Virus record (IMG/VR): IMGVR_UViG_3300047445_000153
Span: 1-64,000 of that record
Length of the DNA: 64,000 bases
Source: a virus
Direction: 5' to 3' (one strand)
Below the pieces are notes generated by a model. That model saw only the letters and a program-made list of their open reading frames with translations. It made no database searches and was not told the origin of the DNA. The position numbers were made by a program, and so were the translations under genes. Shown here piece by piece: positions 3,014 to 59,592 of the stretch; position 1 is the stretch's first letter; every line of letters begins with the position of its first letter.

Positions 3014-3042
3014 TTGCACAGTGACAGTTGAGTCTGTATATT
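3014..3042 (+). promoter_or_regulatory. Promoter of the small-RNA gene
   Basis: TTGCAC, exactly 17 bp, then TATATT: a good sigma-70 match. Transcription would start near A3049. No reading frame follows before the strong terminator at 3177-3215. Confidence 0.65.
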
Positions 3043-3048
3043 TCGTTC

Positions 3049-3215
3049 ATTGCTTCGCGATCTGTGGTGGTGAGTGAAGCGCAGCGAGGCTCCATGAGTC
3101 TCCTGTACTAGATGATTGGGTGGCCAGCTCAATCATCGACCCCAGACATGGGGATGTTTCGATCCAGCAGTGCCTGAAACCCCTACGACCAGCTATCGTA
3201 GGGGTTTTCCTTTTT
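3049..3215 (+). ncRNA. Candidate trans-acting small RNA, about 167 nt
   Basis: Promoter, hairpins and a rho-independent terminator with no coding potential. Hairpin 1 pairs 3051-3058 with 3074-3081 (8 bp including two G-U pairs) and shows the 15-nt loop 3059-3073, which contains TCTGTGGTGGTGA. Hairpin 2 pairs GATGATTG (3111-3118) with CAATCATC (3130-3137). Hairpin 3 pairs CCCC with GGGG near 3140-3153. The unpaired stretch ATGTTTCGATCC (3154-3165) follows, then the terminator stem. The loop and the unpaired stretch are reverse complements of two motifs found before many phage genes: a 13-nt match to the leader of the gene at 5774 and a 12-nt match to the capsid gene leader at 11575. The U-rich 3' end would suit Hfq. 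It does not fold as a tRNA. Confidence 0.6.
3177..3215 (+). terminator. Strong rho-independent terminator of the small RNA
   Basis: AAACCCCTACGA pairs perfectly with TCGTAGGGGTTT (12 bp, 7-nt loop) and is followed by TCCTTTTT. It also separates the plus-strand island from the convergent gene ending at 3255. Confidence 0.9.
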
Positions 3216-3254: not shown

Positions 3255-5774
3255 CTAGACGGTGCTCAGCTTCTCGCCAGAAGGGGCTATTGGGGTACTC
3301 GACGACCCCGTCACGCCCACAAGTGTGAGATTTTCGTAGTTGACCTCCTGGCCCCCCATCTCCGTGCCTCTGATTAAAAGCTTGAATCCGAACTCGGTAG
3401 CCAGCTCCCTCATCTTTGCTCTGAACTGAGTCGATCCAACAGGCTTGGCACTGCCCGGTCCGACGCAGAAGGACCAATATGCTTGATAAAGTTTCAGCTC
3501 CGGAACGCAGGTGGGGGTCGAAGTCTTGGACCCAGCGGATGACTGACTTTGGAGAGGGGCGATCCGCACCTTGCCACTCTCCATGAGAAAAAAACGTACG
3601 CTGTTATTCAAATTCGCGACTTCACGCATCGTCTGGGTATGGGACTCGGGGAGCGTGTACTCATTATTTACCCGCAGCCGCAGCATCGATTGCACCGCCC
3701 AAGCGACGATTGCCTCGCGTTCCTCGACCACGATCGTGTCGCCCAGGTCAAGCCGCCGCTCCGATGCCTTCACCGGCCGGTTGAACTGGAGCACCAGCCA
3801 TCGCCGGTTGAAGCCCTCCGACGTGTCCTCCGTCTTCGGGTAGTGGTTGCTCGCGAACCAGTGCGTGCAGACGGGACTGAACCGGAAGATCTGGCCACCC
3901 TTCAGCTGCCCGCTCATCTCCGCGCCGTCGATGATGTCCTTGAACCGCTGGCCATCAACCAGCTTCTTTTCCGACAGCTCACCGGCCACGTTGATGATCT
4001 TCTCGAACATCTGCGTCGGCAGGAACTTGTCGCTCCACTCATTAGGGGGCGTCGCAGCCCGAGCTGAGTCCGGCACCAGCGCCTGAGCCACCCGCAACAG
4101 CTGGCTTTTCCCGGATTTCGGGGCGCCTTGCAGCAAAATCGCCCGTTGATACCTCGGCCCAAGCCCGAAAAGCGTCACCGCGAGGGCTTCCTGAAGCGCC
4201 ATGATCTTGGCTTCACAGTCCTCGTCCTCACCCCAGCTCTTGCGCAAAAACTCGAAAAACAGCGTCGATTTGCCCGCTAACTCGGGCATATACCGGAACG
4301 GCAGCGTGTACGTCATGCCGTAGCCGGGGTCGTGAGGCAGCAACTTCAGCTCTTCGGTCAGGAACCCATTGGCGAAGTTCACGCCCTTCACGTCGAGCGT
4401 CTTGATGCCTTGGGTCATCAGCATCTTCATGACGCTATAAACGCCCTTGAGGTCGTTGAACTTCTTGCACGCAGCCAGATGGCCATAGTCCGCGCTGATC
4501 CTCGACAGGACATACTGGTCCTCGACCTTCTCCCAGTTCGACCCCGCCCACTTCCAGACGAAGCCGTTGTGTGAGCGGATGGCATACAGCTGCTCCAGGT
4601 CCTTGATCACCGCCCGCGCGACCTCCGACTGGTCCTGGCCCTTGATGTCGCCCATGCGCAGCTCTTTGACGCGCGCCTTGAGCGTCGACACCCGCACCCC
4701 CATACCCCCCGCGAGCCCGATGAACTCAAGCAGGCGGTCCTCTTCGAGCTTGTTCAGGCTCGACGTGGTGGCCAGCTTCTGCAACGCCTTGTCGATCGAT
4801 GCCGCGCGCTGCGGGCTCTCCTTCGGAAACCGCTCGAACTCATCGATCAGGAACTGCTTCAAGTCCTCGAACGTGGACTCTTCCTGCTCCTTCGAAAACT
4901 CAAGACCGTACGCGACCTTCTCATCATTAGTCAGCCCCTCGTCCCACCCGGTCGGCAGCACCTTCTGCTTCTCGAATACGTCCCGGTGCAGGAACTTCAG
5001 CATGTTGCGCACGTGCTTGTCGACATCGATCGGGTCCCCCGCGACGTTCTCGACGAAGTCCGCGGCATAGGCCTGAAGCATGCCGATCGCCTCCTTGACC
5101 GACCGGTCACCGCGCATCACCGCGTAGGCGAAGAGTCCTGCCCGCTCGGTCAGCGACGTGTCGCGCGAGCCCGCCGAGGCGTAGTCCACCACCCGCGTCC
5201 AACCGCTGTGCGACAGCTCGACCCCCGCGCTGGTGAGCGCTGCGCGCAAGATCGCCTCGATGTTCTCGTCGAGCGGCACGAGGTTACGGTGAACATCGAC
5301 CAGCTCGCAGTTGGCCAGATACGGCATCTGCGTATCCGGGTGGATCGACGGCGGCAGCACCGATTGCGTACGTGCCGACAGCATTTCGCAGATCGTCTCA
5401 CCGCTGGTATTCTTGATCCGGAAGGTCTTCAGGCCCGAGTAGCGGTAGGCGAGCATGAAGCCCTTCTTGCCAACGCGCTTCCAGGGTGACGGCGGCAGGA
5501 TCTGCTCGATCAGGTTGATCAGCCGGACATCCTCCGTGTCGATGTCGATCATGCAGATGCCTGACTGCGGCCCGAGCACGATGCCGATGTTGCCGTCGCG
5601 GCACGACTCGATCCACTGGATCTGTTGCTCGGGCTCGACCGGATGATCGAAATAGCGCGACCAGTCGTTCGGGATGGGACGCTTTTCCAAGGGAAAAAGC
5701 GGGATGACAGGCAGGCCCGCTGCGTAGTAGCGTGGCGCTGTCTGTGCGAAAATAGGTTGACGTTCTGGTCTCAT
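3255..5774 (-). CDS. Primase-polymerase / SF3 helicase fusion
   Basis: 839 aa. The N-terminal part (about 1-200) is a bifunctional primase-polymerase (AEP fold) with the metal-binding pair D77/D79 in CMIDIDTED and the histidine motif PPSIH at 141-145. The C-terminal part (about 480-780) is a D5-like superfamily 3 helicase: Walker A GAPKSGKS at 550-557, an acidic Walker B in INVAGELSEK and sensor FASNHYPK followed by RRW. It would unwind and prime phage DNA. Its ATG overlaps the stop of the gene upstream (ATGA). TCACCACCACAGA lies 10 nt before the start and is perfectly complementary to the loop of the small RNA at 3061-3073. Primase and helicase motifs are clear; the phage replication role is inferred. 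Confidence 0.9.
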   Translation of the reverse strand: MRPERQPIFAQTAPRYYAAGLPVIPLFPLEKRPIPNDWSRYFDHPVEPEQQIQWIESCRDGNIGIVLGPQSGICMIDIDTEDVRLINLIEQILPPSPWKRVGKKGFMLAYRYSGLKTFRIKNTSGETICEMLSARTQSVLPPSIHPDTQMPYLANCELVDVHRNLVPLDENIEAILRAALTSAGVELSHSGWTRVVDYASAGSRDTSLTERAGLFAYAVMRGDRSVKEAIGMLQAYAADFVENVAGDPIDVDKHVRNMLKFLHRDVFEKQKVLPTGWDEGLTNDEKVAYGLEFSKEQEESTFEDLKQFLIDEFERFPKESPQRAASIDKALQKLATTSSLNKLEEDRLLEFIGLAGGMGVRVSTLKARVKELRMGDIKGQDQSEVARAVIKDLEQLYAIRSHNGFVWKWAGSNWEKVEDQYVLSRISADYGHLAACKKFNDLKGVYSVMKMLMTQGIKTLDVKGVNFANGFLTEELKLLPHDPGYGMTYTLPFRYMPELAGKSTLFFEFLRKSWGEDEDCEAKIMALQEALAVTLFGLGPRYQRAILLQGAPKSGKSQLLRVAQALVPDSARAATPPNEWSDKFLPTQMFEKIINVAGELSEKKLVDGQRFKDIIDGAEMSGQLKGGQIFRFSPVCTHWFASNHYPKTEDTSEGFNRRWLVLQFNRPVKASERRLDLGDTIVVEEREAIVAWAVQSMLRLRVNNEYTLPESHTQTMREVANLNNSVRFFLMESGKVRIAPLQSQSSAGSKTSTPTCVPELKLYQAYWSFCVGPGSAKPVGSTQFRAKMRELATEFGFKLLIRGTEMGGQEVNYENLTLVGVTGSSSTPIAPSGEKLSTV

Positions 5775-6316
5775 GTTGACTCTTCTGTGGTGGTGATAGG
5801 TGCGCTATCGTCAAGAGCTAGTTGACGGGCCAGAGCGCCCCTAAGTCGATCCATAACCTCGGTACGCTGGGCGGGGCTCAGCGTGTCCTCCATTACTGTG
5901 AGCACGGTGTCTTGAAAGTCCTTGACCTGCTTGACCCCCATCGCCCGCTCACGAGCTGTCACAAGTCGTTCTAGAAGACTGGTCGCGGTGCGGAAGTACG
6001 CCATTTTCTCCGCTTGATCAGACTTCCCGATGGTCTTACCGTAGTTCTTCAACTCTTGAAACACCGCGTACAGGTCTTCAGCCAGCGTGCTATCGATCTC
6101 ATCCTCTGAAATCGGAATTGACTTCTCTCCCCCCTCCGTATCCTCACTCGTGTCCAGCCTCATCCAGATCGAGTCCTGGATCAACTTCTTGAGCGCATCG
6201 TCGTAAGGACAATCCGGACTCTTAAGGTAGTCGCTGTTTTCACGGGCCAGCGTGACGACAGTCTTGAAAGCCCACTGGGCATGCTCAGTCAGCTCGGGGT
6301 AGTGGTAGTCGCTCAT
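5771..6316 (-). CDS. Hypothetical protein, 181 aa (possible packaging or replication partner)
   Basis: The start at MSDYHYPELTE was chosen because GGAGGAA lies 5 nt upstream; a longer in-frame start has no such site. The acidic middle (EDEIDSTLAEDLY) is followed by a helical C-terminal half (TSLLERLVTARERAMGVKQV, then DFQDTVLTVMEDTLSPAQRT). This half recalls C-terminal regions of small terminase-associated phage proteins, but I cannot name a family. It is co-transcribed with the primase-helicase (4-nt overlap) and diverges from the large terminase gene. Either a small terminase subunit placed on the opposite strand or a replication accessory protein is possible. Confidence 0.6.
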   Translation of the reverse strand: MSDYHYPELTEHAQWAFKTVVTLARENSDYLKSPDCPYDDALKKLIQDSIWMRLDTSEDTEGGEKSIPISEDEIDSTLAEDLYAVFQELKNYGKTIGKSDQAEKMAYFRTATSLLERLVTARERAMGVKQVKDFQDTVLTVMEDTLSPAQRTEVMDRLRGALARQLALDDSAPITTTEEST

Positions 6317-11470: not shown

Positions 11471-11574
11471 GGTCGGCTCCGTCCACCACCGGAGCCGGAT
11501 GAAAGAAGAAGCTGGGTGCCCCGACCACCACCGGGGTTCCCAGCGGGTTCAACCAAAACCACACGGATCGAAAC
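11471..11574 (+). promoter_or_regulatory. Structured leader of the capsid gene
   Basis: Contains two hairpins: GGCTCC...GGAGCC near 11475-11494, and CCCCG (ACCACCAC) CGGGG near 11518-11535. ACCACCACC is displayed in the second loop. GGATCGAAAC (11565-11574) then leads directly into ATG. GGATCGAAACAT is perfectly complementary to 3154-3165 of the small RNA. There is no classical Shine-Dalgarno sequence, although the capsid must be made in large amounts. Confidence 0.55.
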
Positions 11575-12762
11575 ATGCCCGATTTGATCGACATCAAGCG
11601 CGAAGCACCGGAAGTGGTGCTGAGCAATCTGCGGCCGGACGATGCGAGCGACCAAGGTCGCTCCATCATGGCCGGTCAAAAGCTGGTTCGCCTCGCGGCG
11701 GATTCCGGCCTCAACCTGCGTGACTACCTCACGCTCGCGATCGACCCGCGCAAGGCGTCGGAACCGGCACGCTACGAAGGCCTGAACGGCTACGAAGCCG
11801 CGCTGTCGTTCCTCAACCTGCCGGTTCGCCAGGACCTCGAACAAGGCGTGCTGCTGCAAGCCGCCTCGGAAACGTTCCAGACGTATCCTGGCACGCGTGC
11901 CATGTTCCCGGAAGTGATGGACGACGTGCTGCGCTGGCGCAATCGTCAAGACCAGCTGGAATCGGTCGCACCGATCCTCGCGCAATCGCGCACGATCACG
12001 GGCACCGAGATGATCTCGACGTTCGTCGACGACGACAGCGCCGAGCGCACCACGCACTCGGTGGCTGAATTCGGCCGCGTGCCGGTTCGCACGATCCGTA
12101 CGTCGCAGTCCAGCGTCGGTATCTTCAAGCACGGCTCGGGCTACCGTACCTCGTACGAGTTCAACCGCCGCGCTTCGCTCGACCTCATGACGCCCTTCGC
12201 GTCGCGTGTCGGTCGCGAGCTGGAGATCTCGAAGGTGCGCGCTGCCACGAGCATCCTGATCAACGGCGACGGCGTGAACCCCGCAGCTCCGGTGGTCAAC
12301 CTGACCGCGTTCGGCGGCGACGCAGCCAAGCCGTTCGCGACCAACTACAAGGCGCTCGCCAAGTGGTTGCTCGCTCGCGCGAAGGCGGGCTACCCGATCG
12401 ACACGCTGCTCGGCAACTACGACATGTTCATTGAAATCTTGTTCATGTTCCAGCCGGTGCTGAACCTGGGCACGGCCACGGACATCGAGAAGATGGTCGC
12501 GCACGGTGCGCCGCAAGTGAACACCAGCCTGCCGATTCTGAACAAGTCGGTGAACTTCGCGCTGTCCAGCTCGGTGCCGGAAGGCCAGCTGATCGGCTTC
12601 ACGAAGGGTGAAACGCTGGAAGAGCTGGTTGAAGCAGGTTCGAACATCTCGGAAAACGAGCGTTCGATCATCAACCAGTCGATCACGTACGTGCGCACCG
12701 AAAACACGGGCTACAAGCTCGCGTTCGGCGACACCCGTCAGATCCTCGACACCGCAGCCTAA
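11575..12762 (+). CDS. Major capsid protein
   Basis: 395 aa, the expected size for an HK97-fold shell protein (or lambda E-like). It follows protease and decoration genes, is followed by a strong terminator and has the well-expressed codon use of a structural gene. It contains EGLNGYEAALSFLNLPVRQD, SHGSGYRTSYEF-like beta segments and a long helical stretch (FASRVGRELEISKVRAATSI). Hundreds of copies would form the head. Translation starts from an unusual leader (GGATCGAAAC next to the ATG) instead of a Shine-Dalgarno site. Confidence 0.85.
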   Translation: MPDLIDIKREAPEVVLSNLRPDDASDQGRSIMAGQKLVRLAADSGLNLRDYLTLAIDPRKASEPARYEGLNGYEAALSFLNLPVRQDLEQGVLLQAASETFQTYPGTRAMFPEVMDDVLRWRNRQDQLESVAPILAQSRTITGTEMISTFVDDDSAERTTHSVAEFGRVPVRTIRTSQSSVGIFKHGSGYRTSYEFNRRASLDLMTPFASRVGRELEISKVRAATSILINGDGVNPAAPVVNLTAFGGDAAKPFATNYKALAKWLLARAKAGYPIDTLLGNYDMFIEILFMFQPVLNLGTATDIEKMVAHGAPQVNTSLPILNKSVNFALSSSVPEGQLIGFTKGETLEELVEAGSNISENERSIINQSITYVRTENTGYKLAFGDTRQILDTAA

Positions 12763-12819: not shown

Positions 12820-12842
12820 CACGCCTACGGACTCCACCACAC

Positions 12843-13208
12843 ATGAAAGTCATTGCACACACCACTGGCGCCTTCCAGTTGCTGGACGCCTTCAGCGGCG
12901 ACCTCATCCCGGCGCACCGCCCCGCTGTCATCGAAAAGACGATGTTCATCACCGCGCGCCTCGCGATTGAGCAAGTGAAGATCGTCGCTGAAGTGAACAG
13001 CTCGGCGACCGACGCGCAATTCGTGAAGCACTGGAAGGACTCGGACGGCGACATGGATCTCGCGATCCAGTCGTTCCTCGCGATCTACGGCCTGGACGTC
13101 GTGGCTCAAGAAGACGTGGCTCGGGAGCGCGAAGCTGAAGCTGAGACGGCCGCGCAAGAACCCGAAGCTGCCCCCGCCCCCGACGCGAAGAAAACGTCGA
13201 AGAAGTAA
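12843..13208 (+). CDS. Hypothetical head/neck protein, 121 aa
   Basis: The start at MKVIAHTTGAFQLLD was chosen; it follows CTCCACCACAC without a clear ribosome binding site. Residues 1-85 look globular (TMFITARLAIEQVKIVAEV, FLAIYGLDVV). The C-terminal 40 residues are Glu/Ala-rich ending KKTSKK and are probably disordered. It lies between the capsid terminator and another small structural gene. Function unknown; virion or head-completion roles are plausible from position only. Confidence 0.6.
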   Translation: MKVIAHTTGAFQLLDAFSGDLIPAHRPAVIEKTMFITARLAIEQVKIVAEVNSSATDAQFVKHWKDSDGDMDLAIQSFLAIYGLDVVAQEDVAREREAEAETAAQEPEAAPAPDAKKTSKK

Positions 13209-32061: not shown

Positions 32062-32085
32062 TCGGGAACCAGAGGACACCACCAC

Positions 32086-33567
32086 ATGCAGCAATACACT
32101 CAGATTCCAGACAGTGCGCGAGTCTCCGACTCGCTGCTGCCGCTCCTGAATAACGACCAGACCGCGATCTCGCGCAACTCCGGCCCGAACTTCCCGACCG
32201 TGGGGCTGGTCGTTGGCATGCCCTACTACAGCACGAGCCAGAACAAGCTCTATCGGCTGTCGAGCGTGTCACCGCTCACGTGGGTGGTCGAGCTGGATTA
32301 CACGCGTCCCTTCGCCTATCAGGACAGCGTGGACGCGGCTAACGCGAACGCGAACGCGCGGGTGTCGCGAGCTGGCGACACCATGACCGGTTACCTGACG
32401 CTGGTCAACGACCCGGTCTCCGCGCTGCACGCCGCGTCGAAACGGTACGTCGATGCACAGGCAACGAATGCAATCAACAGCGCGAACTCGCGGGTCTCGC
32501 GTGGCGGCGACAGCATGTCGGGGTTCCTGACGCTGTACACCGATCCACAGCAGCCCTACCACGCCGCGACGAAGAACTACGTCGACTACCTCTACAACGT
32601 GGTGCAGGGCGCGAAGCTGAACCGTAACGGTGACACGCTCGGAGAGGTCTTCAACAACGGCTGGTACCGCTCGAACGGCGTGACGGGCTGGTACAGCCAG
32701 ACCTTCGGCGGCGGGATCTTCATGCAGGATACGTCCAACGTGCGTATCTACGGCGGCAAGGGCTTCAGCACCGACTGGCACTCGCTCGAACAGGGCACGG
32801 GGATGATTTGGACGAGTGGCTACGGCTGGCTTCACGAGCGCTTCGCGTCCAAGAGCGCCGAGGGCGCCCTGACTTCGGTCGGTACGCTGAACAGCCAGCC
32901 GAGTGGCGTCGTGCTGCCGCAGGCTTTCTACCTCCAGAAGAGCGGCAGTCAGGTGCAGCTGGTGCGTACGCTCGGCAACTGCAACTGCAACTGCGCCTGC
33001 ACGTGCTTCCCGGCTGGGACGCGGATCCTGATGGGCGACCGCAAGACGTGGCGCACCGTTGAGTCGCTGATGGTTGGCGAGATCGTCATGACCCCCACCG
33101 GCCCCGAGCCGATCATCGAGATCGAGACGCCGTTCCTCGGCGAGCGCTCGATGTGCATGTTCGCCGACGGCTCGCTCAAGTGGACCGATGACCATGCGTT
33201 CTGGACGCGCCGCGACGGCGTGGAAGGCTTCGCGGTGGTCGACAAGGCCTCGTTCATGAACGGGGTCCATGCGGGCGTCGTGAAGGGCCTGAATGACCAT
33301 GACGACCTACTGGAGCTGAACGACAAGCTCGACGAGTTCGCGCATCTCGATGGCTGGAAGAAGAAACGCGTGTTCCGCTACCCCGCCCCCGCCGAGACCA
33401 AGGTCTACCTGCCGATCGTCGGTGGCTCCCACATGATCATCGCGGAAGGCTTCGTCGTCAGCGCTGGCATGGACGAAGCCACCTTCGACTACGACAGCTT
33501 CGAGTGGAAGGGCATGGCCCTCGCCCACGTGCCGCTCAACAAGGAGCTGTTCAATGCTCGTCCATAA
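32086..33567 (+). CDS. Tail fibre with Cys-Asn run and C-terminal Hint domain
   Basis: 493 aa. Residues 1-80 are the attachment part. Three fibre repeats follow, of the form GDTMTGYLTL ... HAASKRYVD (from about 97, 141 and 181), then a beta-rich region to about 296. The run N298-CNCNCACTC-F308 has five cysteines at alternating positions (299, 301, 303, 305, 307). Cys307 starts a Hint domain: CFPAGTRIL (block A), then TDDH at 367-370 (block B). The end-block GGSHMIIAEGFVVSAG lacks the terminal HN of splicing inteins, so cleavage or ester transfer is more likely than splicing. It shares overlapping ends with the next three genes, including a radical SAM enzyme. Confidence 0.85.
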   Translation: MQQYTQIPDSARVSDSLLPLLNNDQTAISRNSGPNFPTVGLVVGMPYYSTSQNKLYRLSSVSPLTWVVELDYTRPFAYQDSVDAANANANARVSRAGDTMTGYLTLVNDPVSALHAASKRYVDAQATNAINSANSRVSRGGDSMSGFLTLYTDPQQPYHAATKNYVDYLYNVVQGAKLNRNGDTLGEVFNNGWYRSNGVTGWYSQTFGGGIFMQDTSNVRIYGGKGFSTDWHSLEQGTGMIWTSGYGWLHERFASKSAEGALTSVGTLNSQPSGVVLPQAFYLQKSGSQVQLVRTLGNCNCNCACTCFPAGTRILMGDRKTWRTVESLMVGEIVMTPTGPEPIIEIETPFLGERSMCMFADGSLKWTDDHAFWTRRDGVEGFAVVDKASFMNGVHAGVVKGLNDHDDLLELNDKLDEFAHLDGWKKKRVFRYPAPAETKVYLPIVGGSHMIIAEGFVVSAGMDEATFDYDSFEWKGMALAHVPLNKELFNARP

Positions 33568-34255
33568 AAGCCTGATCCCCACGGATCTCTCAGAAGAAGA
33601 CGCCGCTCGAATCACCGACATCGTCACCGTGCTGCCTACGGAGACGGGCTTCGTCTTGCAGTGCGCATCGCTCAGCCTCTACTGGCAGTTCAACATGAAC
33701 CTCGTCCAGTATGGTAACGACATCATGTACTTGACCCGCACGCGCGGAGGTACGTGGGCCGTGATGTGGGCGACGGATCTGCACGAGTCGCGTGACAGCT
33801 GGTCTGAGGCGATGCTGCGCAAGAACGTCGATGAGTTCCGCCCGGTGGTGATGATCGGCATCAACCCCGAGAAGACCGACTACACGGCGATCCTCTTCTG
33901 CAACACACGCGAACCGAACAACCCGAACCCCACGGTCGACAACTCGACGGACAGCGGCGACATGGCCATGAAGCGGTTGATGCCGAGCATCGAACCGCTG
34001 CTGCAACGGCACTGGGCCAAGCACAAGCTACTCAAGCACACGAAGACGAACGACTCGCTCGCGGCGCTTGAGGCCCAGGTCGATCTGCTGACGAGCTGGT
34101 TGATCGAGCTGCTGCCTGCTGAGAAGGTGCAGCGACTCATCGATGCGGGCGTGCTGACGCTGAAGGATGAAGCCGCTACCCTCGACGACGTGGTGGCCTT
34201 CAAGACAGCCTTGCGAGAACGCCAGCAGGTCTACCTCACCACCATCGGCAAATGA
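33554..34255 (+). CDS. Unknown protein between Hint fibre and radical SAM enzyme
   Basis: 233 aa. A strong ribosome binding site (AAGGAG) lies inside the end of the fibre gene, so the two are coupled (14-nt overlap). The N-terminal half is alpha/beta (TDIVTVLPTETGFVLQCASL; YLTRTRGGTWAVMWATDLHE; VVMIGINPEKTDYTAILFCN). The C-terminal half is helical (LAALEAQVDLLTSWLIELLP). No family is recognised. Placement between putative substrate and maturase, each overlapping, suggests a chaperone, recognition partner or structural assembly factor for the modified fibre. No catalytic motif is evident. Confidence 0.7.
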   Translation: MLVHKSLIPTDLSEEDAARITDIVTVLPTETGFVLQCASLSLYWQFNMNLVQYGNDIMYLTRTRGGTWAVMWATDLHESRDSWSEAMLRKNVDEFRPVVMIGINPEKTDYTAILFCNTREPNNPNPTVDNSTDSGDMAMKRLMPSIEPLLQRHWAKHKLLKHTKTNDSLAALEAQVDLLTSWLIELLPAEKVQRLIDAGVLTLKDEAATLDDVVAFKTALRERQQVYLTTIGK

Positions 34256-35598
34256 CAACCTTCGTCCTCAAAACGGCCGAGGGCCGCGACTTCTTCTACA
34301 ACAACATGCGCAGCACGCTGGTCGACGCCTGCACGGGTCGCCCCGTGCTCGCTCCGCGAGAGGTTGACACCCCTCGAAGCCCTGCCCCGCAAGACTTCCG
34401 CAAGTCGGAAACGATCCGGACGCTGAAGATCCAGATGGGTCTGTCGTGCAACTACAGCTGCGAGTATTGCTCGCAGCGGTTCGTGCCGCACGCGGAGCCC
34501 ACCGGCCCCTACTCGGTCGATCACTTCATCTCGCGCCTGAGCTGGAACGCCTCGCTCGCGGACGACGCCACGGTGGAGTTCTGGGGTGGCGAGCCACTGG
34601 TCTACTGGAAGACGCTGGTCCCGCTCGTCGAGCAGCTGCGCATTCGCTACCCGGCGCTGACCTTCAAGATGATCACGAACGGGTCGCTGCTCGATCCGAT
34701 GAAGGCGAGCTGGCTGATCGCGAATGGCTTCCACATCGGCATCTCGCACGACGGTCCTGGCCAAGCCGCACGCGGGCCGGACCCGCTCGATGATCCCGAG
34801 AAGCGCGAGGCGATCCTGATGCTGTACCGGCGCCTGCGACCGCTCGGGCGTATCAGTTTTAATGCAATGCTGCACTCGCAAAATACATCGCGTGCGGCGA
34901 TACAACAGTTCTTCGTCCGGCTGACGAACGACGCGGAAGTGCCCATCGGCGAGGGCATGTTTGTGGATGCCTACGACGAGGGCGGCAGGGGTATGTCTTT
35001 CCTTGACGCTCAGGATCACGTCGACTATCGTCGCAAGGCGTTCGACGAGCTGAAGGCGGGGATGGCTCTCAATTTCAGCTCGGTGACCGAGAAGATCTAC
35101 GACTTCGCAGACTCCTTGCAAACGGGTCGCTTGGCGTCCACCGTTGGCCAGAAGTGCGGTTCCGATCGCTCCGACAGCCTCACGGTGACGCTCGACGGCG
35201 ATGTCCTCACGTGCCAGAACGTATCGGCTGTCTCCGTCGCCCCGAACGGAAAGAGCCACCGGGCTGGCTCGATCGAAGACATGGCTGCGGTGCGCGTGCA
35301 GTCCTCGCGCCACTGGTCGACCCGCGAGCACTGTTCCAGCTGCCCTGTCGTGCAGCTATGCAAAGGCTCTTGCATGTTCCTCGAAGGCGATCTCTGGGAT
35401 GTCACGTGCGATACCGCCTACAGCGATAACGTCGTGTTCCTGGCGACTGCCCTCTTGGAGCTGACAGGCTGTACGTTGCAACGCATCGAGCCGATGACTG
35501 GTTCGCTGCCCGAAACCCGCCAGAGTGTCTTCGGACCTCTGGCGCATAAGCGGACCACCACCCGCAAAATCATACGGATCGAAACGGAAAAATCATGA
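34252..35598 (+). CDS. Radical SAM enzyme with SPASM domain
   Basis: 448 aa. C66-x3-C70-x2-C73 in GLSCNYSCEYCSQRF binds the radical-generating 4Fe-4S cluster, and FWGGEPLV is the expected glycine-rich SAM motif (residues about 110-117). The C-terminal part has a full seven-cysteine SPASM pattern: C-x13-G-x4-C near 301-320, then C-x2-C-x5-C-x3-C (HCSSCPVVQLCKGSC, about 362-375), then a last Cys in DVTC. Enzymes of this class modify peptides and proteins (thioether bonds, sulfatase formylglycine, C-C bonds). The nearest Cys-rich candidate substrate is the fibre two genes upstream. Its start overlaps the preceding stop (ATGA). CACCACCA lies just before the start. Confidence 0.93.
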   Translation: MTTFVLKTAEGRDFFYNNMRSTLVDACTGRPVLAPREVDTPRSPAPQDFRKSETIRTLKIQMGLSCNYSCEYCSQRFVPHAEPTGPYSVDHFISRLSWNASLADDATVEFWGGEPLVYWKTLVPLVEQLRIRYPALTFKMITNGSLLDPMKASWLIANGFHIGISHDGPGQAARGPDPLDDPEKREAILMLYRRLRPLGRISFNAMLHSQNTSRAAIQQFFVRLTNDAEVPIGEGMFVDAYDEGGRGMSFLDAQDHVDYRRKAFDELKAGMALNFSSVTEKIYDFADSLQTGRLASTVGQKCGSDRSDSLTVTLDGDVLTCQNVSAVSVAPNGKSHRAGSIEDMAAVRVQSSRHWSTREHCSSCPVVQLCKGSCMFLEGDLWDVTCDTAYSDNVVFLATALLELTGCTLQRIEPMTGSLPETRQSVFGPLAHKRTTTRKIIRIETEKS

Positions 35599-35984
35599 GC
35601 ACACCGCAAGCACCACAGCCACAGCAAGACCCGATGCCCCTCATCCGCACGTTGCAGGCGCAGCGCAACATGGCGCTCGACCAGCTGGCCGACACCAGCG
35701 CCGCGCTCGAACACGTGCAAGCCGTACTGCGTGGCACGCAGGAACTGGCCGCGAAGCAGCAGTCGGAGATCGACGATCTGAACATGCGGATGGGCAAGAC
35801 GCTCGCCGCGCTGGCGAGCATGCAAGACTGCAACGCGAAGCTCACCGAGCAGAACCTCGATCTGCAAATCGATCTGGACGAGGCCCGTCGAGTTCCGGAC
35901 GCGGAGATCGCGGTGGCCGTAGAGTCACCGGCAGGCGTGCTGACGCTGCCGGTGGCTTATCCGTCTGCTTCGGACGAGCTGTAA
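35595..35984 (+). CDS. Coiled-coil protein following the radical SAM gene
   Basis: 129 aa. Overlaps the radical SAM stop by 4 nt. A Gln/Pro start (MSTPQAPQPQQDPMPL) leads to an almost continuous coiled coil from residue 16 to 100 (LQAQRNMALDQLADTSAALE; KQQSEIDDLNMRMGKTLAAL). The end is hydrophobic and acidic. It is led by ACCACCACC and GGATCGAAAC (inside the 3' end of the radical SAM gene). It may be a trimerisation or fibre-assembly chaperone, inferred from context only. Confidence 0.65.
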   Translation: MSTPQAPQPQQDPMPLIRTLQAQRNMALDQLADTSAALEHVQAVLRGTQELAAKQQSEIDDLNMRMGKTLAALASMQDCNAKLTEQNLDLQIDLDEARRVPDAEIAVAVESPAGVLTLPVAYPSASDEL

Positions 35985-36177: not shown

Positions 36178-36207
36178 TTCGGCACTCACCACCACCACGA
36201 GTGCTCG

Positions 36208-36741
36208 ATGTCCATCACCGCCGCCCAGCTCCAGAGGGTTTGGAAGCGCGCGCCGGCCGCGCGCTGTGCCCTGTTCGCCCCACTTCTCTCCGACGCGATG
36301 GCTCGCTTCGGTATCGACACGCTCGAAGAGACGGCCGAGTTCATCGCGCAGGTCTCGCACGAGTCTGGAGAAGGCCAGTGGCTTGAAGAGATTGCGAGCG
36401 GCAAGGCCTATGAAGGCCGCTTGGATCTCGGCAATACCGAGCCGGGGGACGGGGAAAAGTTTAAGGGTCACGGGATGATCCAGTGTACTGGCCGCAAGAA
36501 CCATCTCTTGATGGGAATGCTGCTTGGCCTGGACCTCATCGCCAACCCTCGCCTGCTGTGTGAACCGAAGAACGCGTGTGACAGCGCTGCGGCTTTCTGG
36601 TGGAACCACAAGCTCGACGACCTCGCGGCCAAGAAGGACTTCGTCAAGGTGACGAAGGTGGTCAACGGCGGTACGAACGGTCTAGCGGAACGGCAAGCCT
36701 ACCTTGCACTCGCCCGCGCAGCGCTCACGGAGATTGCATAA
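36208..36741 (+). CDS. Endolysin, GH19 chitinase-like
   Basis: 177 aa. Glu52 in QVSHESGEGQWLEE is the expected catalytic acid. YEGRLDLGNTEPGDGEKFKG and GHGMIQCTGRKNH form the family 19 glycosidase signature. It would cut the glycan strands of peptidoglycan at lysis. There is no signal peptide and it is followed directly by holin candidates, so release would need a holin. The length is normal for a single-domain GH19 endolysin. Confidence 0.9.
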   Translation: MSITAAQLQRVWKRAPAARCALFAPLLSDAMARFGIDTLEETAEFIAQVSHESGEGQWLEEIASGKAYEGRLDLGNTEPGDGEKFKGHGMIQCTGRKNHLLMGMLLGLDLIANPRLLCEPKNACDSAAAFWWNHKLDDLAAKKDFVKVTKVVNGGTNGLAERQAYLALARAALTEIA

Positions 36742-42427: not shown

Positions 42428-43096
42428 ATGACTGTCGTTGCGTTAGCCGTAGAGAAGGGTGGTGTGGGGAAAAGCAACCTGACGGAATCGTTAGCCGCGC
42501 TGCGCGCTGGGTTGAAGTACCGCGTGGCGATCTTGGACCTAGACCGTCAGGCGTCCACCAGCAAGTGGGGCTTGCGAAGAAAGGACACAGGAGGTCTTCC
42601 TCACGTCCACATAGAGAGGGGGGCGGGTGTCGACGAGGTCGTCGTGCTGGAGGACTTTAGGCGTCGGTTGTCGGACCTGAAGCAAGCGTATCAGGACGTG
42701 TTCATTGATGTCGGGGGGCAGGACAACGGGCTGTTCCGCGAAACGCTTTTGTTGGCGGATAAGGTCGTGGCCCCGTTGGTGCCTGGACCCGCAGAAGCCG
42801 ACACAGTCATCGACCTTGCGAACACGCTGCGCGGCATGAGGCAACGCCCGGACGTCCGCGTGGTGCTGAACATGGTCAGCGGGATGCCGAACCTGTTACG
42901 CGTCATGCAAAGCACACTGGACGACCACAAGGATGTCTTGCCGACCGTTGGCTTCACGATCGGTCGGCGCGTCGCGTTCCCGTACGCGAGCGCGGCAGGG
43001 AAGGGCGTGAGCGAGCTGGCCACCCGCAAGGAAGGGTTTGATCCTGCTGCTGCAAATGATCTGCGCAGCCTTTACTTGGAGATTTTCGGAAAATGA
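42428..43096 (+). CDS. parA: ParA-family partition ATPase
   Basis: 222 aa. Deviant Walker A K10-GGVGKS16 with the signature lysine at the front, Walker A' in VAILDLDRQAST and Walker B near VFIDVGGQDNG. It lacks the N-terminal HTH of type Ia proteins, so it is a short, type Ib-like ParA. These ATPases move plasmid copies apart along the nucleoid together with a small DNA-binding partner. The ATG has AGGAG nearby and the next gene overlaps by 4 nt. Its presence is strong evidence for plasmid maintenance of this phage. Confidence 0.92.
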   Translation: MTVVALAVEKGGVGKSNLTESLAALRAGLKYRVAILDLDRQASTSKWGLRRKDTGGLPHVHIERGAGVDEVVVLEDFRRRLSDLKQAYQDVFIDVGGQDNGLFRETLLLADKVVAPLVPGPAEADTVIDLANTLRGMRQRPDVRVVLNMVSGMPNLLRVMQSTLDDHKDVLPTVGFTIGRRVAFPYASAAGKGVSELATRKEGFDPAAANDLRSLYLEIFGK

Positions 43097-43491
43097 GCAC
43101 AGCCCGATTCAACGCGAAGAGCAAGAAGGAGTTTTCCGATCTCGCGCCCGCAGAGGAGGGCGCACAGGCGGCTCCGGAGACCCCACCCGCTACTCAGCCC
43201 TCAGCAGAGCCTCAGCAGCCCGCTGTGGCCCCTCCTGTGCAGCAGCTGGTGGCAAACCACCCTCCTGCGAAACCGCCTTTGACTGCTCCAGCGTTGCCGC
43301 AGGGCTACGTCAAGAAGCGCGGTGTTCGAGACCGTGGCCAGCCGCTGAACGTGTTGATCCCGTCGCCACTGTTCGACAAGCTCCAGCAGACGGCGCGCGA
43401 CCTGGGCGTCACGCAGAAGGACATCGTGGCCAAGGCGATCGAGAAGGAGCTGAAGCTGATCGAGTTCGAACTGGGGCAACCGGGCGGGTGA
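43093..43491 (+). CDS. parB: ParB-like centromere-binding partner, 132 aa
   Basis: A long Pro/Ala/Gln-rich, probably disordered N-terminus (residues 10-70; PPATQPSAEPQQPAVAPPVQ) is followed by a compact C-terminal domain (GQPLNVLIPSPLFDKLQQTA, then VTQKDIVAKAIEKELKLIEF). This C-terminal part fits a ribbon-helix-helix DNA-binding fold, as in small partners of type Ib ParA proteins. Sequence family is not diagnostic, but overlap with parA and the fold pattern make the role likely. It may bind the palindromes upstream of parA. Confidence 0.75.
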   Translation: MSTARFNAKSKKEFSDLAPAEEGAQAAPETPPATQPSAEPQQPAVAPPVQQLVANHPPAKPPLTAPALPQGYVKKRGVRDRGQPLNVLIPSPLFDKLQQTARDLGVTQKDIVAKAIEKELKLIEFELGQPGG

Positions 43492-43506
43492 CCGTGGATT
43501 TGCCCT

Positions 43507-43842
43507 ATTGGGAGGATTTCCGGGTTGCGTTAGTTCGGAGGAAATGGTTATCCACAAACGCTCGCGCGGGGTTTGTAGACGTTTGTATACGTTTGTAGGA
43601 GGCTGAGACCCTTCACCAGTAAGGCTTTGCTGGGAGCTATTGGGAGGATTTCCAGACGCATTGGGAGAATTTCCAGACGAACTGGGAGGATTTCCGGGTT
43701 GGTGATTGGGAGGATTTCCAGACGAATGCCTGTTATCCACAGGTTTTGCCCGGAAATCCTCCCAGTGACAACGGATCGGGAGGGATGATAATCTAAACCC
43801 TCCCAGTCATCCGGCCTGCGACAACCCGGAAATCCTCCCAAT
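43507..43842 (+). other. Iteron-type origin of replication (oriV)
   Basis: Five direct iterons ATTGGGAGGATTTCCGGGTT or ...CCAGACG start at 43507, 43639, 43660, 43681 and 43705. The middle three are spaced 21 bp apart and the next follows at 24 bp. Two inverted copies (43749-43766 and 43823-43842) and a half copy near 43797 lie at the rep promoter; the last overlaps the rep start codon. Two perfect DnaA boxes TTATCCACA are at 43548-43556 and 43733-43741. Three 10-bp repeats GTTTGTANAC (43571-43600) may be the melting region. The layout is that of theta-replicating plasmids, whose Rep binds iterons as monomer and inverted sites as dimer. Confidence 0.9.
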
Positions 43843-44596
43843 GAAACTCAAGCACGCGAAGGCTGCGATCGATTTAGTCGATCGGCATGTGACCCTGCAT
43901 AACGACCTTGTCGTTGCCTCGCATGGGCTGAAGACCCTGGCTGAACAGCGCATCGTGAAGTCGTGCGCGGCCAAGATCGACTCCGTGCGGCTTGAGAACA
44001 ATCGATACAAGATCAAGCTAAACGCGAGAGAGTATGCAGAGACCTTCGGGCTGGATATGGCCACCGCCTACGAGCAGCTGAAGAGCGGGTGCACAGAGCT
44101 GACTGAGCGGTGGATCGAGTGGTCGGAGACGGTGGTGAAGGAGAGGGGAGTCATCGCGCGGCATAAGGACCGCTGGGTGAGCGGTGCGACGTACGTCGAC
44201 AAGGCGGGTTGGATCGAGCTGCGGTTCACGCCGGAAGCGACGCCGTTCCTGAACGTGCTCCGTGGCAACCACACGACCTACTTGCTGCGGCAGGCTGCGT
44301 CGTTGCGGTCGATCTACTCATGGCGGCTGCTGGAGCTGCTGATGCAGTTCAAGGACACTGGCTGGCGGCAGATGCCGATCAAGGACTTCCTCCGCGCGAT
44401 GGACGCGAAGCCGAGCCATATGCAGAACTTCAAAGATGCTCGGAGGCAGATCATCGAAGTCGCGGTGAAGGAGTTGCAAGAGAAGGACGGGTGGATGATC
44501 GATTGGGATACCGTCCGGGAGGGGCGGAAGGTTGTAGGTATCAAGTTCAACTTCAAACGTGATCCTCAAGGAAAACTGGCCTTCACAGAGGCCTGA
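43841..44596 (+). CDS. Replication initiator, Rep_3 family
   Basis: 251 aa with the two winged-helix halves of Rep_3 (RepB/RepE/Pi-like) initiators: HVTLHNDLVVASHGLKTLAE and TYEQLK-like helices, then WIELRFTPEATPFL, SIYSWRLLELLMQFKDTG and the second half ending VVGIKFNFKRDPQGKLAF. It would bind the iterons just upstream, recruit host DnaA/DnaB and control copy number. An inverted iteron covers its start codon, indicating self-repression. Identity is strong from sequence and iterons together. Confidence 0.92.
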   Translation: MKLKHAKAAIDLVDRHVTLHNDLVVASHGLKTLAEQRIVKSCAAKIDSVRLENNRYKIKLNAREYAETFGLDMATAYEQLKSGCTELTERWIEWSETVVKERGVIARHKDRWVSGATYVDKAGWIELRFTPEATPFLNVLRGNHTTYLLRQAASLRSIYSWRLLELLMQFKDTGWRQMPIKDFLRAMDAKPSHMQNFKDARRQIIEVAVKELQEKDGWMIDWDTVREGRKVVGIKFNFKRDPQGKLAFTEA

Positions 44597-49329: not shown

Positions 49330-49908
49330 TTAGGAGTTACGTGCGTCGAGCCCGCCCTTGTCTGCCCGTGCTTCAGCAGCGACATTCGAATACTTGTCGG
49401 GGAAACGCTCTTGAAGCTTCGCGATGTTCTCCGCCATGAGATCTTCGATCGTGAAAGCTTGCAAGGCATCGCAGGCATGAGTCACTGCGGCAACGATGTT
49501 GATCAGGCTGCGCATGACGAACTCCCGGCTGGCAGGGCTGTCAAGCAGAGGAGCCTGGAAGGCAATGAAGCCGATTTCCATCGCGATGCGGCACGCGATC
49601 ATGTTCAACTGCGTGGCCGTGCCGAAGCGCGAGAAGTCTTCGAACAGGCCCTGACCTGTCGGGACGTCGCAGTCGATCGCGTCAGCTGCGATGGCCACGT
49701 ACCAGAGGAGATCTCCAAGCTCCTCGCGCATGTGACCGATGAACTCAACCGACAACGGCTTTTCATAGATCGCGATGCGTTTGACTACGGTTGTGAATTC
49801 GCCGTTCTCGGTGGCCAGACCAAGGATGGCGTGATTGAGACGCAGGTGAGTCGTAGCTAACGGCTTCTCGGTGCGTAGTGCCAAAGGCTTGTATTGCTGA
49901 AAGTTCAT
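49330..49908 (-). CDS. MazG-like nucleotide pyrophosphohydrolase (second copy)
   Basis: 192 aa. LGLATENGEFTTVVKR and FIGHMREELGDLLWYVAIAA give the helical Mg-binding E-x2-E...E-x2-D arrangement, and EDLMAENIAKLQERFPDKYS is the usual C-terminal end of this group. The middle has an inserted helical part (residues about 85-145). Distinct in sequence from the copy at 46489. The leader contains TCACCACCACA, an 11-nt match to the small RNA loop complement. Confidence 0.85.
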   Translation of the reverse strand: MNFQQYKPLALRTEKPLATTHLRLNHAILGLATENGEFTTVVKRIAIYEKPLSVEFIGHMREELGDLLWYVAIAADAIDCDVPTGQGLFEDFSRFGTATQLNMIACRIAMEIGFIAFQAPLLDSPASREFVMRSLINIVAAVTHACDALQAFTIEDLMAENIAKLQERFPDKYSNVAAEARADKGGLDARNS

Positions 49909-49929
49909 AGTCGTTGTGGTGGTGATCGG

Positions 49930-53464: not shown

Positions 53465-54059
53465 CGACAACTTGACCGGCAACAGAGAGGGAGGGATGCT
53501 TCGTGGAATGCTCGCGCACCGCGTAGATCACCTTCAACTGATGGAACACGTCGAACAGCGCGCTGTGTGCATCGCCGACGAACGGGATCTCGCGCTCGAA
53601 CGCGGGCGGCTCCTGCGGCCAGTAGCGGCCACGGATCCACGAGTTCATGTCGTTGGTGTAGCGAAAGTGGAACGGGTTCGCGACCTCGAACTGGCGGAAG
53701 TAGCTTTCGAGGAACGGGAACTCGAAGTGAGAGGGCTTGGCCCACAGACGCAGCGTGTCGTTGTACGGGTCGGTCCCCACCTTGCACCACGTCACGAAGT
53801 CTTCGAGCACCTTCTTCGGTTGCTCGGAACGCTGCATGATGCTGGTCAGGATGTGACGCTTGTCCTTCAGCCACCACGCGCGTGTGTCTTCGTCGAAGTA
53901 GCGCTTCGGGGGGATCATCAGGCAACGGTCGAACGTCTCGGGCATGATCTCACCCGAGGCGAAGTCGAAGCGCACTGCTGCGATTTGGATGATCGCCGAC
54001 GAACCGGGTTCGGTACCCGTCGTTTCGAGGTCGACCATTACGTCAAGATACTTTGTCAT
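53451..54059 (-). CDS. 3'-5' exonuclease, DEDD type (Rv2179c-like)
   Basis: 202 aa. D10-LE12-TTG is the ExoI motif, the ExoII-like KPSHFEFPFLES is near 110 and H165-x4-D170 (GDAHSALFDV) is the ExoIII motif. Overall it resembles the single-domain phage and Rv2179c-like exonucleases. It could trim DNA or RNA 3' ends during recombination or mRNA turnover. Overlaps the following gene upstream by 17 nt. Confidence 0.85.
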   Translation of the reverse strand: MTKYLDVMVDLETTGTEPGSSAIIQIAAVRFDFASGEIMPETFDRCLMIPPKRYFDEDTRAWWLKDKRHILTSIMQRSEQPKKVLEDFVTWCKVGTDPYNDTLRLWAKPSHFEFPFLESYFRQFEVANPFHFRYTNDMNSWIRGRYWPQEPPAFEREIPFVGDAHSALFDVFHQLKVIYAVREHSTKHPSLSVAGQVVDVPS

Positions 54060-54507
54060 TACTTTGGCCAGATAGAAGAAGTGCGAATCGTGGATGATTC
54101 GAGAATAGGTGGTGGGCTATCTCGGACCACTTCACCGACATTGCATCATGGTCGATGAGAAACGCTGCGTTGATCACATACCACTCGCCGGTTGATTCCC
54201 GACGAATGATGAATAGGTACTGCCCGCCAGCTGTGATAGCTTTGCGCGCGGCACGCCATTGGTTTTTGGAGATCATGCTGAGGCGAAACGACGGCTCGTG
54301 AGCCGTGCTCTTCACTTCAGCGTAGAACATCATCCCGTCCCACGTCACGACGAAGTCGGCGGGCTGGGCGTCCTTGATTGATTTCTTGAGACCAGTTGCT
54401 CCGCGCACGTAGGCGGTATCGGTCAGGCGCTCGACAGCCGCGCGCTTCCCGAATGGCGCAAAGAACGAGACGAACTCATCCTCCGCGTCTTTCCAGACGT
54501 GCTTCAT
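54043..54507 (-). CDS. PD-(D/E)XK nuclease, probable resolvase or endonuclease
   Basis: 154 aa. AQPADFVVTWDGMMFYAEVK shows the D...ExK catalytic core (Asp near 48 and E-V-K near 64-66), with an upstream Glu in the first helix (AEDEFVSFFAPFGK). The same fold is used by Holliday-junction resolvases and VRR-type nucleases. The substrate is unknown. The leader holds CACCACCACCAC. It is the first gene after a likely promoter at 54546. Confidence 0.78.
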   Translation of the reverse strand: MKHVWKDAEDEFVSFFAPFGKRAAVERLTDTAYVRGATGLKKSIKDAQPADFVVTWDGMMFYAEVKSTAHEPSFRLSMISKNQWRAARKAITAGGQYLFIIRRESTGEWYVINAAFLIDHDAMSVKWSEIAHHLFSNHPRFALLLSGQSNDKVS

Positions 54508-54545
54508 TTTTCTTTGACTTTTACCAGTGGTGGTGGTGTCTGAGG

Positions 54546-59378: not shown

Positions 59379-59564
59379 TTACTCCATCGTGCTTGCGGCG
59401 ACTTCCGAGCCGACCAGCGCGACGGCGAACATGCCGATGCCGTCATCGCGCTTGATGATGGAGCGGATCTCATCTGCTGCTGCCTGGATCTTCGCCTGCG
59501 TGTCTGCATCTTGCTTGCCGATCTCGTCCTTGACGATGAGCAGCTGAATGTATTCCGGTGCCAT
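59379..59564 (-). CDS. Hypothetical protein, 61 aa
   Basis: Starts MAPEYIQLLIVKDEIGKQDA, probably an alpha-helical hairpin followed by a hydrophobic end (GMFAVALVGSEVAAS). Its 28-nt leader is unusual: CCACCACCACCACAACA then GGATCGAAACA next to ATG, without a Shine-Dalgarno site. Both parts match the complements of the small RNA. No function known. Confidence 0.65.
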   Translation of the reverse strand: MAPEYIQLLIVKDEIGKQDADTQAKIQAAADEIRSIIKRDDGIGMFAVALVGSEVAASTME

Positions 59565-59592
59565 TGTTTCGATCCTGTTGTGGTGGTGGTGG

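Follow-up and report, generated by a model that had tools for sequence, protein, structure and literature searches.

A conserved phage small RNA and matching tags at the start regions of many genes of the same phage: a probable base-pairing regulon

Main finding

The DNA analysed (hereafter, the window) comprises positions 1–64,000 of a virus record of 81,905 bases. Between an HNH gene and the primase gene it holds a candidate small RNA of about 167 nt, two short segments of which (seeds) are complementary to tags recurring in the start regions of separate genes of the same phage. A pairing regulon of this kind is very probably real. The probable reading of its role is that the phage-encoded RNA pairs with the start regions of the phage's own genes and represses their translation, most likely in lysogeny.

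A trans-acting RNA pairing with a set of leaders had been proposed from the sequence-only reading of this DNA, and it is supported by the enrichment of tags, by the co-change of seed and tags and by the joint absence of RNA and tags. Pairing between the RNA and its tags is well supported by genome comparison. That the RNA is transcribed, that it represses and does not activate, and that it acts in lysogeny are three points that we infer.

Genomes compared

The capsid and primase place the window phage in a group of 80-kb tailed phages that also holds Achromobacter phages JWF and 2-1, Xylophilus phage Lumi and Caulobacter phage Seuss. The capsids of JWF and 2-1 are 73% identical to that of the window phage, and closer relatives were found among viral contigs. 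One RNA-bearing relative is identical to a stretch within a 290-kb Burkholderia paludis contig, where it has other DNA on both sides.

The comparison set comprised nine RNA-bearing genomes or large contigs (the window phage included) and two genomes without the RNA, namely JWF (G007) and G008. Leaders were taken from a codon-usage gene caller, with the starts of the primase and 35595 genes set by hand.

The small RNA and its conservation

The features of the locus are as follows.

3014–3042, plus strand: promoter read in the sequence (TTGCAC at 3014–3019, 17-nt spacer, TATATT at 3037–3042)
3049–3215, plus strand: small RNA of about 167 nt in the gap between HNH and primase genes, with kept position and five-hairpin fold
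3051–3081, plus strand: hairpin 1, with covarying stem and invariant apex
3061–3073, plus strand: seed 1, TCTGTGGTGGTGA, invariant in all copies
3119–3128, plus strand: apex of hairpin 3, GGTGGCCAGC, invariant or nearly so in all copies
3154–3165, plus strand: seed 3, ATGTTTCGATCC, left single-stranded by the local five-hairpin fold
about 3175–3210, plus strand: intrinsic terminator, read in the sequence and by folding

Both the promoter and the terminator claimed earlier for this RNA are present in the sequence, the latter with a U-rich tail. In relatives, the HNH–primase gap holds the same element (promoter, about 160–185 nt, terminator), and most of them have a TTGC-type -35 and a TATA- or TAAAGT-type -10 in the same place. 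Judged by these signals, the RNA appears to be a free-standing gene with its own promoter and terminator in the window and in the relatives. The terminator loop (3183–3200, YAGCTA type) is nearly invariant across the RNA family, G003 excepted.

None of 200 dinucleotide shuffles folds as well as the 167-nt transcript (z -4.3). A five-hairpin fold is common to all copies, with compensatory changes and the two seeds fixed; of the 33 pairs predicted by RNAalifold, 19 have both sides changed with pairing kept. When pieces are folded alone, hairpins 1–3 recur in eight sequences, and hairpin 2 does so even though its sequence differs in nearly all eight copies. In the alignment, GATCTGTGGTGGTGAG, GTGGCCAGC and GTTT[T/C]GATC are invariant, with variable stretches between them.

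The first seed had been described as showing in a 15-nt loop. Its apical location holds, and the loop size is only approximate, as hairpin 1 folded alone contains a small inner helix of 3 bp. Seed 3 is indeed unpaired before the terminator stem, as had been claimed, in the local five-hairpin fold. Over the whole molecule, the computed mean unpaired probability of the seeds is 0.4–0.8, i.e., moderate, and an alternative whole-molecule fold predicted for the window RNA pairs parts of both. Taken at the level of prediction, the RNA is a conserved structure with fixed seeds of moderate accessibility.

An Rfam search of the window gave no family above the gathering score for this RNA, and a search of a phage collection returned no DNA similar to it. 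When 64 other genomes of the host genus were searched with an RNA model, no copy turned up, nor did one in 398 other genomes sampled from the host family, large searches being run with stricter filters. In JWF and G008 we looked for an analogous RNA with other seeds and did not find one. Exact seed matches in viral contigs L085–L088, L097, L098 and L101–L105 were rejected: they lack the flanking sequence of the RNA and look like chance matches, probably in coding sequence.

Tags before genes

The complement of seed 1 is CTCACCACCACAGA, and that of seed 3 is GGATC[A/G]AAACAT. Tags were located at the following sites of the window.

5784–5796, minus strand: seed-1 tag TCACCACCACAGA, 13 nt, before the primase gene (3255–5774)
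11565–11576, plus strand: seed-3 tag GGATCGAAACAT, 12 nt, overlapping the start codon of the major head protein gene (11575–12762)
12834–12841, plus strand: short seed-1 tag, 8 nt, weak alone, before gene 12843–13208
32077–32086, plus strand: seed-1 tag ending at the start codon of the tail-fibre-like protein gene (32086–33567)
34235–34244, plus strand: seed-1 tag before the radical-SAM gene (34252–35598), within upstream coding sequence
35576–35585, plus strand: seed-3 tag GGATCGAAAC before gene 35595–35984
36184–36195, plus strand: seed-1 tag, 12 nt, before the endolysin gene (36208–36741)
49915–49925, minus strand: seed-1 tag TCACCACCACA, 11 nt, before the MazG-like gene (49330–49908)
54530–54538, minus strand: seed-1 tag before the Holliday-junction resolvase gene (54043–54507)
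59579–59588, minus strand: double tag, seed-1 part, before a 61-aa gene (59379–59564)
59565–59575, minus strand: double tag, seed-3 part, before the same 61-aa gene

Every leader match quoted in the sequence-only reading was found, the one at the 36208 gene (36184–36195) having the greater length of 12 nt. Further sites occur in the last 18 kb of the record, beyond the window. The nine genomes together have 126 sites of at least 8 nt in 43 gene families, chance matches being among the shortest sites; the sites lie genome-wide, on both strands, and matches reach 14 nt of RNA seed. A primase tag of at least 8 nt is present in seven of the eight compared RNA-bearing relatives.

According to PHROGs and Pfam, the tagged genes of the window phage encode the major head protein, primase, MazG-like, tail-fibre-like, endolysin and radical-SAM proteins and the Holliday-junction resolvase. 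In relatives, DNA ligase, ThyX, an SbcD-like protein and an antirestriction gene are tagged as well. Several tagged genes are small and of unknown function. The radical-SAM gene (34252–35598) lies between the tail-fibre region and the lysis genes and is kept in nearly all relatives.

Enrichment over background

We scored every 9-mer of each genome's RNA in leaders (-45 to +6) against the whole genome. In the nine RNA-bearing genomes, this blind scan gave enriched words in seeds 1 and 3 and one other word, in one relative; in the RNA-less JWF and G008, no word was enriched. A scan starting from the leaders ranked the seed complements first or close to first in most genomes with the RNA.

Complements of at least 10 nt were found in 9 of the 108 leaders of the window phage, where coding windows predict 1.8, the same-sense control gives 1 and shuffled RNA gives a mean of 0.67 (maximum 4 in 200 shuffles). 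Relatives with the RNA have 6 to 15 such leaders, the highest number being in G002 (15 of 91), and neither JWF nor G008 has any. Across all genomes, the coding-window expectation is 0.5–1.8, the mean for shuffled RNA 0.3–0.9 and the count for same-sense RNA 0–2. The density of the motifs before genes, which the earlier reading had put forward for checking, is therefore far above background, and by all four controls complementary sites are enriched in the translation start regions of separate genes. An energy-only duplex scan of the seeds did not separate leaders from GC-rich coding sequence; because GC-rich coding windows match leaders in such a score, we used contiguous complementarity with controls.

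The sequence CACCACCACA occurs 5–13 times in each RNA-bearing relative and is absent throughout four RNA-less relatives (JWF, 2-1, G008 and Lumi). Tags are missing exactly where the RNA is missing; as a point against the regulon, G003 keeps the RNA and has few tags. It had been cautioned that CACCACCAC, being simple sequence, should count less than the second motif. This caution was not borne out, as the controls give both seeds equal weight.

Co-change of seed and tags

Position 3160, within seed 3, is C in the window RNA and U in every relative, so that the window RNA reads GUUUCGAUCC where all relatives have GUUUUGAUC. The facing position in the leaders, GGATC[N]A, is G in six of seven cases in the window phage and A in 45 of 47 cases (A or G counted) in the other RNA-bearing genomes (Fisher P=7e-6; since the leaders depend partly on each other, this value is only a guide). 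The two exceptions in relatives can still pair, because a leader G pairs with either U or C. The genome-wide ratio of GGATC[AG]A is unshifted in the window phage.

The switched leaders belong to different genes, such as those of the capsid and of the 61-aa protein at 59564. In one leader family most relatives likewise have G, and this family was not counted as a switch. The RNA lineage shows only a single such event, although the matching change appears in several separate genes. Seed and tag sites thus change together, RNA U to C with leader A to G, and the check on seed–leader co-variation that had been suggested revealed no independent change.

These data also bear on whether a protein binds the leader motifs, or whether they serve as DNA operators, with their match to the RNA a coincidence. 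The simple sequence of CACCACCAC and the presence here of other repeated leader words resembling palindromic operators would favour such a role. However, neither tag is palindromic over its full length, the matches extend to 14 nt of seed and are strand-specific by the same-sense control, and the tags can fall in coding sequence and change along with the RNA. We therefore regard this explanation as very unlikely.

A word of the operator-like kind is the near-palindrome GTGCGAC..GTCGCACTTT, which is repeated before early genes (723–760 of the window and leaders in L039, i.e., genome positions 64001–81905). Six of the seven occurrences of CGTCGCACT are in leaders, and JWF has a different word, GGTTCGTAACGAACC. 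The near-palindrome is probably an operator or a promoter.

Still less probable is that host mRNAs are the main targets and the phage tags a side effect. The invariant apex GGTGGCCAGC, for which the 9-mer scan gave no complementary tags in phage leaders, would suit such targets; against them, tags in the phage are numerous, follow the change of the RNA and are missing where it is missing. The apex (3119–3128) holds the palindrome TGGCCA and may form dimers or have a partner in the host or a protein partner.

Tag position and direction of control

The median gap to the start codon is 1 nt for seed-3 duplexes, which end at or inside it, and 12 nt for seed-1 duplexes, which end upstream of it. 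In 40 of 117 duplexes of at least 9 nt, the end lies no more than 5 nt from the start codon or inside it (inside it in 13). In known systems, a duplex at or beside the start codon blocks initiation. Since 21 of the 126 sites in the nine genomes lie within upstream coding sequence, the tag would act at the RNA level and not as a promoter; tags as promoters were ruled out on the same ground.

Shine–Dalgarno pairing is weaker in tagged leaders (median -2.9 vs. -6.1 kcal/mol, P=2e-14). Within gene families, tagged members have the weaker Shine–Dalgarno sequence in 24 of 29 cases, and orthologous leaders of JWF and G008 (e.g., primase and MazG) often have an ordinary one. Even at sites wholly upstream the difference persists (-3.4 vs. 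-5.7, P=0.006). When a tag is transplanted into a leader, the value becomes -3.4, which indicates that most of the weakening is displacement by the tag.

It could be argued from the weak Shine–Dalgarno sequences, seen overall, within families and at sites wholly upstream, that tagged leaders need the RNA to open them or to bring the ribosome, and that the RNA switches the lytic programme on. The transplant control undoes this evidence for the most part. Moreover, spacing to the start codon is loose, the 40 duplexes noted above occupy the ribosome's seat, and tagged leaders are computed to be unstructured already, which leaves little to open. Activation is thus unlikely, and its strongest form, in which the RNA is a trans-acting replacement for the Shine–Dalgarno sequence, tagged genes are translated only when paired and the RNA is a lytic master switch, is more doubtful still. 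Displacement of the Shine–Dalgarno sequence by the tag is expected under activation too; it suits repressible leaders or, with lower probability, activation.

Repression would proceed as follows. The RNA would act in trans on a regulon of the phage's own mRNAs, its two exposed seeds (at the apex of hairpin 1 and just before the terminator) pairing with dedicated start-region tags of primase, MazG, resolvase, major head protein, tail fibre, endolysin and small early genes. The duplex would cover or abut the start codon, or take the place of the Shine–Dalgarno region, so that ribosomes could not load and translation would be repressed.

Link to lysogeny

Integrase is present in G001, G002, G004, G005 and G006, and ParA in the window phage, G002, G003 and G009; G010, a half-length contig, was left out of this scoring. 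Each RNA-bearing genome scored has at least one of the two, and JWF, 2-1, G008 and Lumi, all RNA-less, have neither; these association counts ignore common descent. As we found the RNA in lysogeny-capable members alone, its most likely task is to silence lytic transcripts that leak through while the phage is a prophage or a phage-plasmid.

The window phage has a plasmid-maintenance cassette, an observation in its own right for a tailed phage whose close relatives have integrase.

42428–44596, plus strand: plasmid-maintenance cassette with ParA, a RepB-type regulator and a Rep3 initiator

We checked the ParA and Rep3 leaders of the window phage and found no tag; a contrary case is the ParA gene of G009, which has a 10-nt match to the RNA. 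The earlier idea of a role in the plasmid state agrees with this cassette and its untagged ParA and Rep3 leaders, and the gene content would fit a shut-down of lytic genes while the phage is a plasmid or a prophage. In three relatives (G001, G002 and G005; L045:746–2020) the integrase gene has its own seed-1 tag, which would link integration or excision to the same RNA.

A role mainly in the timing or dosage of lytic growth, rather than in lysogeny, is improbable. Targets do span early and late genes, and a sigma-70-like promoter would presumably be read on infection. Nevertheless, the RNA and tags are absent from JWF, 2-1, Lumi and G008, which have no lysogeny genes, and present in integrase- or ParA-bearing relatives, and the ParA and Rep3 genes of the window phage carry no tags. 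Repression during lysogeny is the mechanism that the sequence data appear to support best.

Comparison with known systems

Multi-target bacterial base-pairing RNAs have exposed conserved seeds, pair at translation start regions and end in a 3′ terminator. The window RNA differs from them in that its candidate regulon is the virus's own genome and its tags replace the Shine–Dalgarno sequence.

Nearest in purpose is the CI RNA of P4, which pairs with phage transcripts and so keeps the replication genes of this satellite phage-plasmid silent during lysogeny (PMC4825925). It is processed from the leader under its control and acts by premature transcription termination at seqA and seqC, within one region (PMC4825925). 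In contrast, the RNA at 3049–3215 looks like a free-standing gene matching the start regions of many separate genes; with its own promoter-like sequence and sites genome-wide, it does not conform to the CI type.

VpdS of vibriophage VP882, an RNA of about 50 nt linked to quorum sensing, is a temperate-phage RNA that affects phage and host mRNAs and promotes replication (PMC12197685). That review describes no set of dedicated leader tags for VpdS in its own phage, whereas the window RNA has such matches. The RNAs sar (phage P22) and 24B_1 (phage Phi24B) act on phage mRNA and favour lysogeny, with one main described phage target each (ant and d_ant, respectively), and sar is an antisense RNA of its target (PMC12197685).

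The phage RNAs listed in this 2025 review have one or few described phage targets (PMC12197685). Our search of the open-licence literature did not turn up a phage RNA known to have complementary tags at so many genes of its own phage. A trans-acting base-pairing RNA is a known kind; so many targets among a phage's own genes, as predicted here, would be new to the literature covered.

Significance

Lysogeny is usually ascribed to protein repressors acting at DNA operators. If confirmed, the regulon would add a genome-wide post-transcriptional layer of prophage control, in which one RNA could turn off the genes for replication, capsid, tail fibre and lysis at once. A dedicated RNA code seems to exist in this temperate phage group, made of a short RNA and dozens of matched tags that evolution has kept in register with it, at genes for replication, structure and lysis, and matching leaders to intergenic RNAs offers a route to similar RNAs in other phages.
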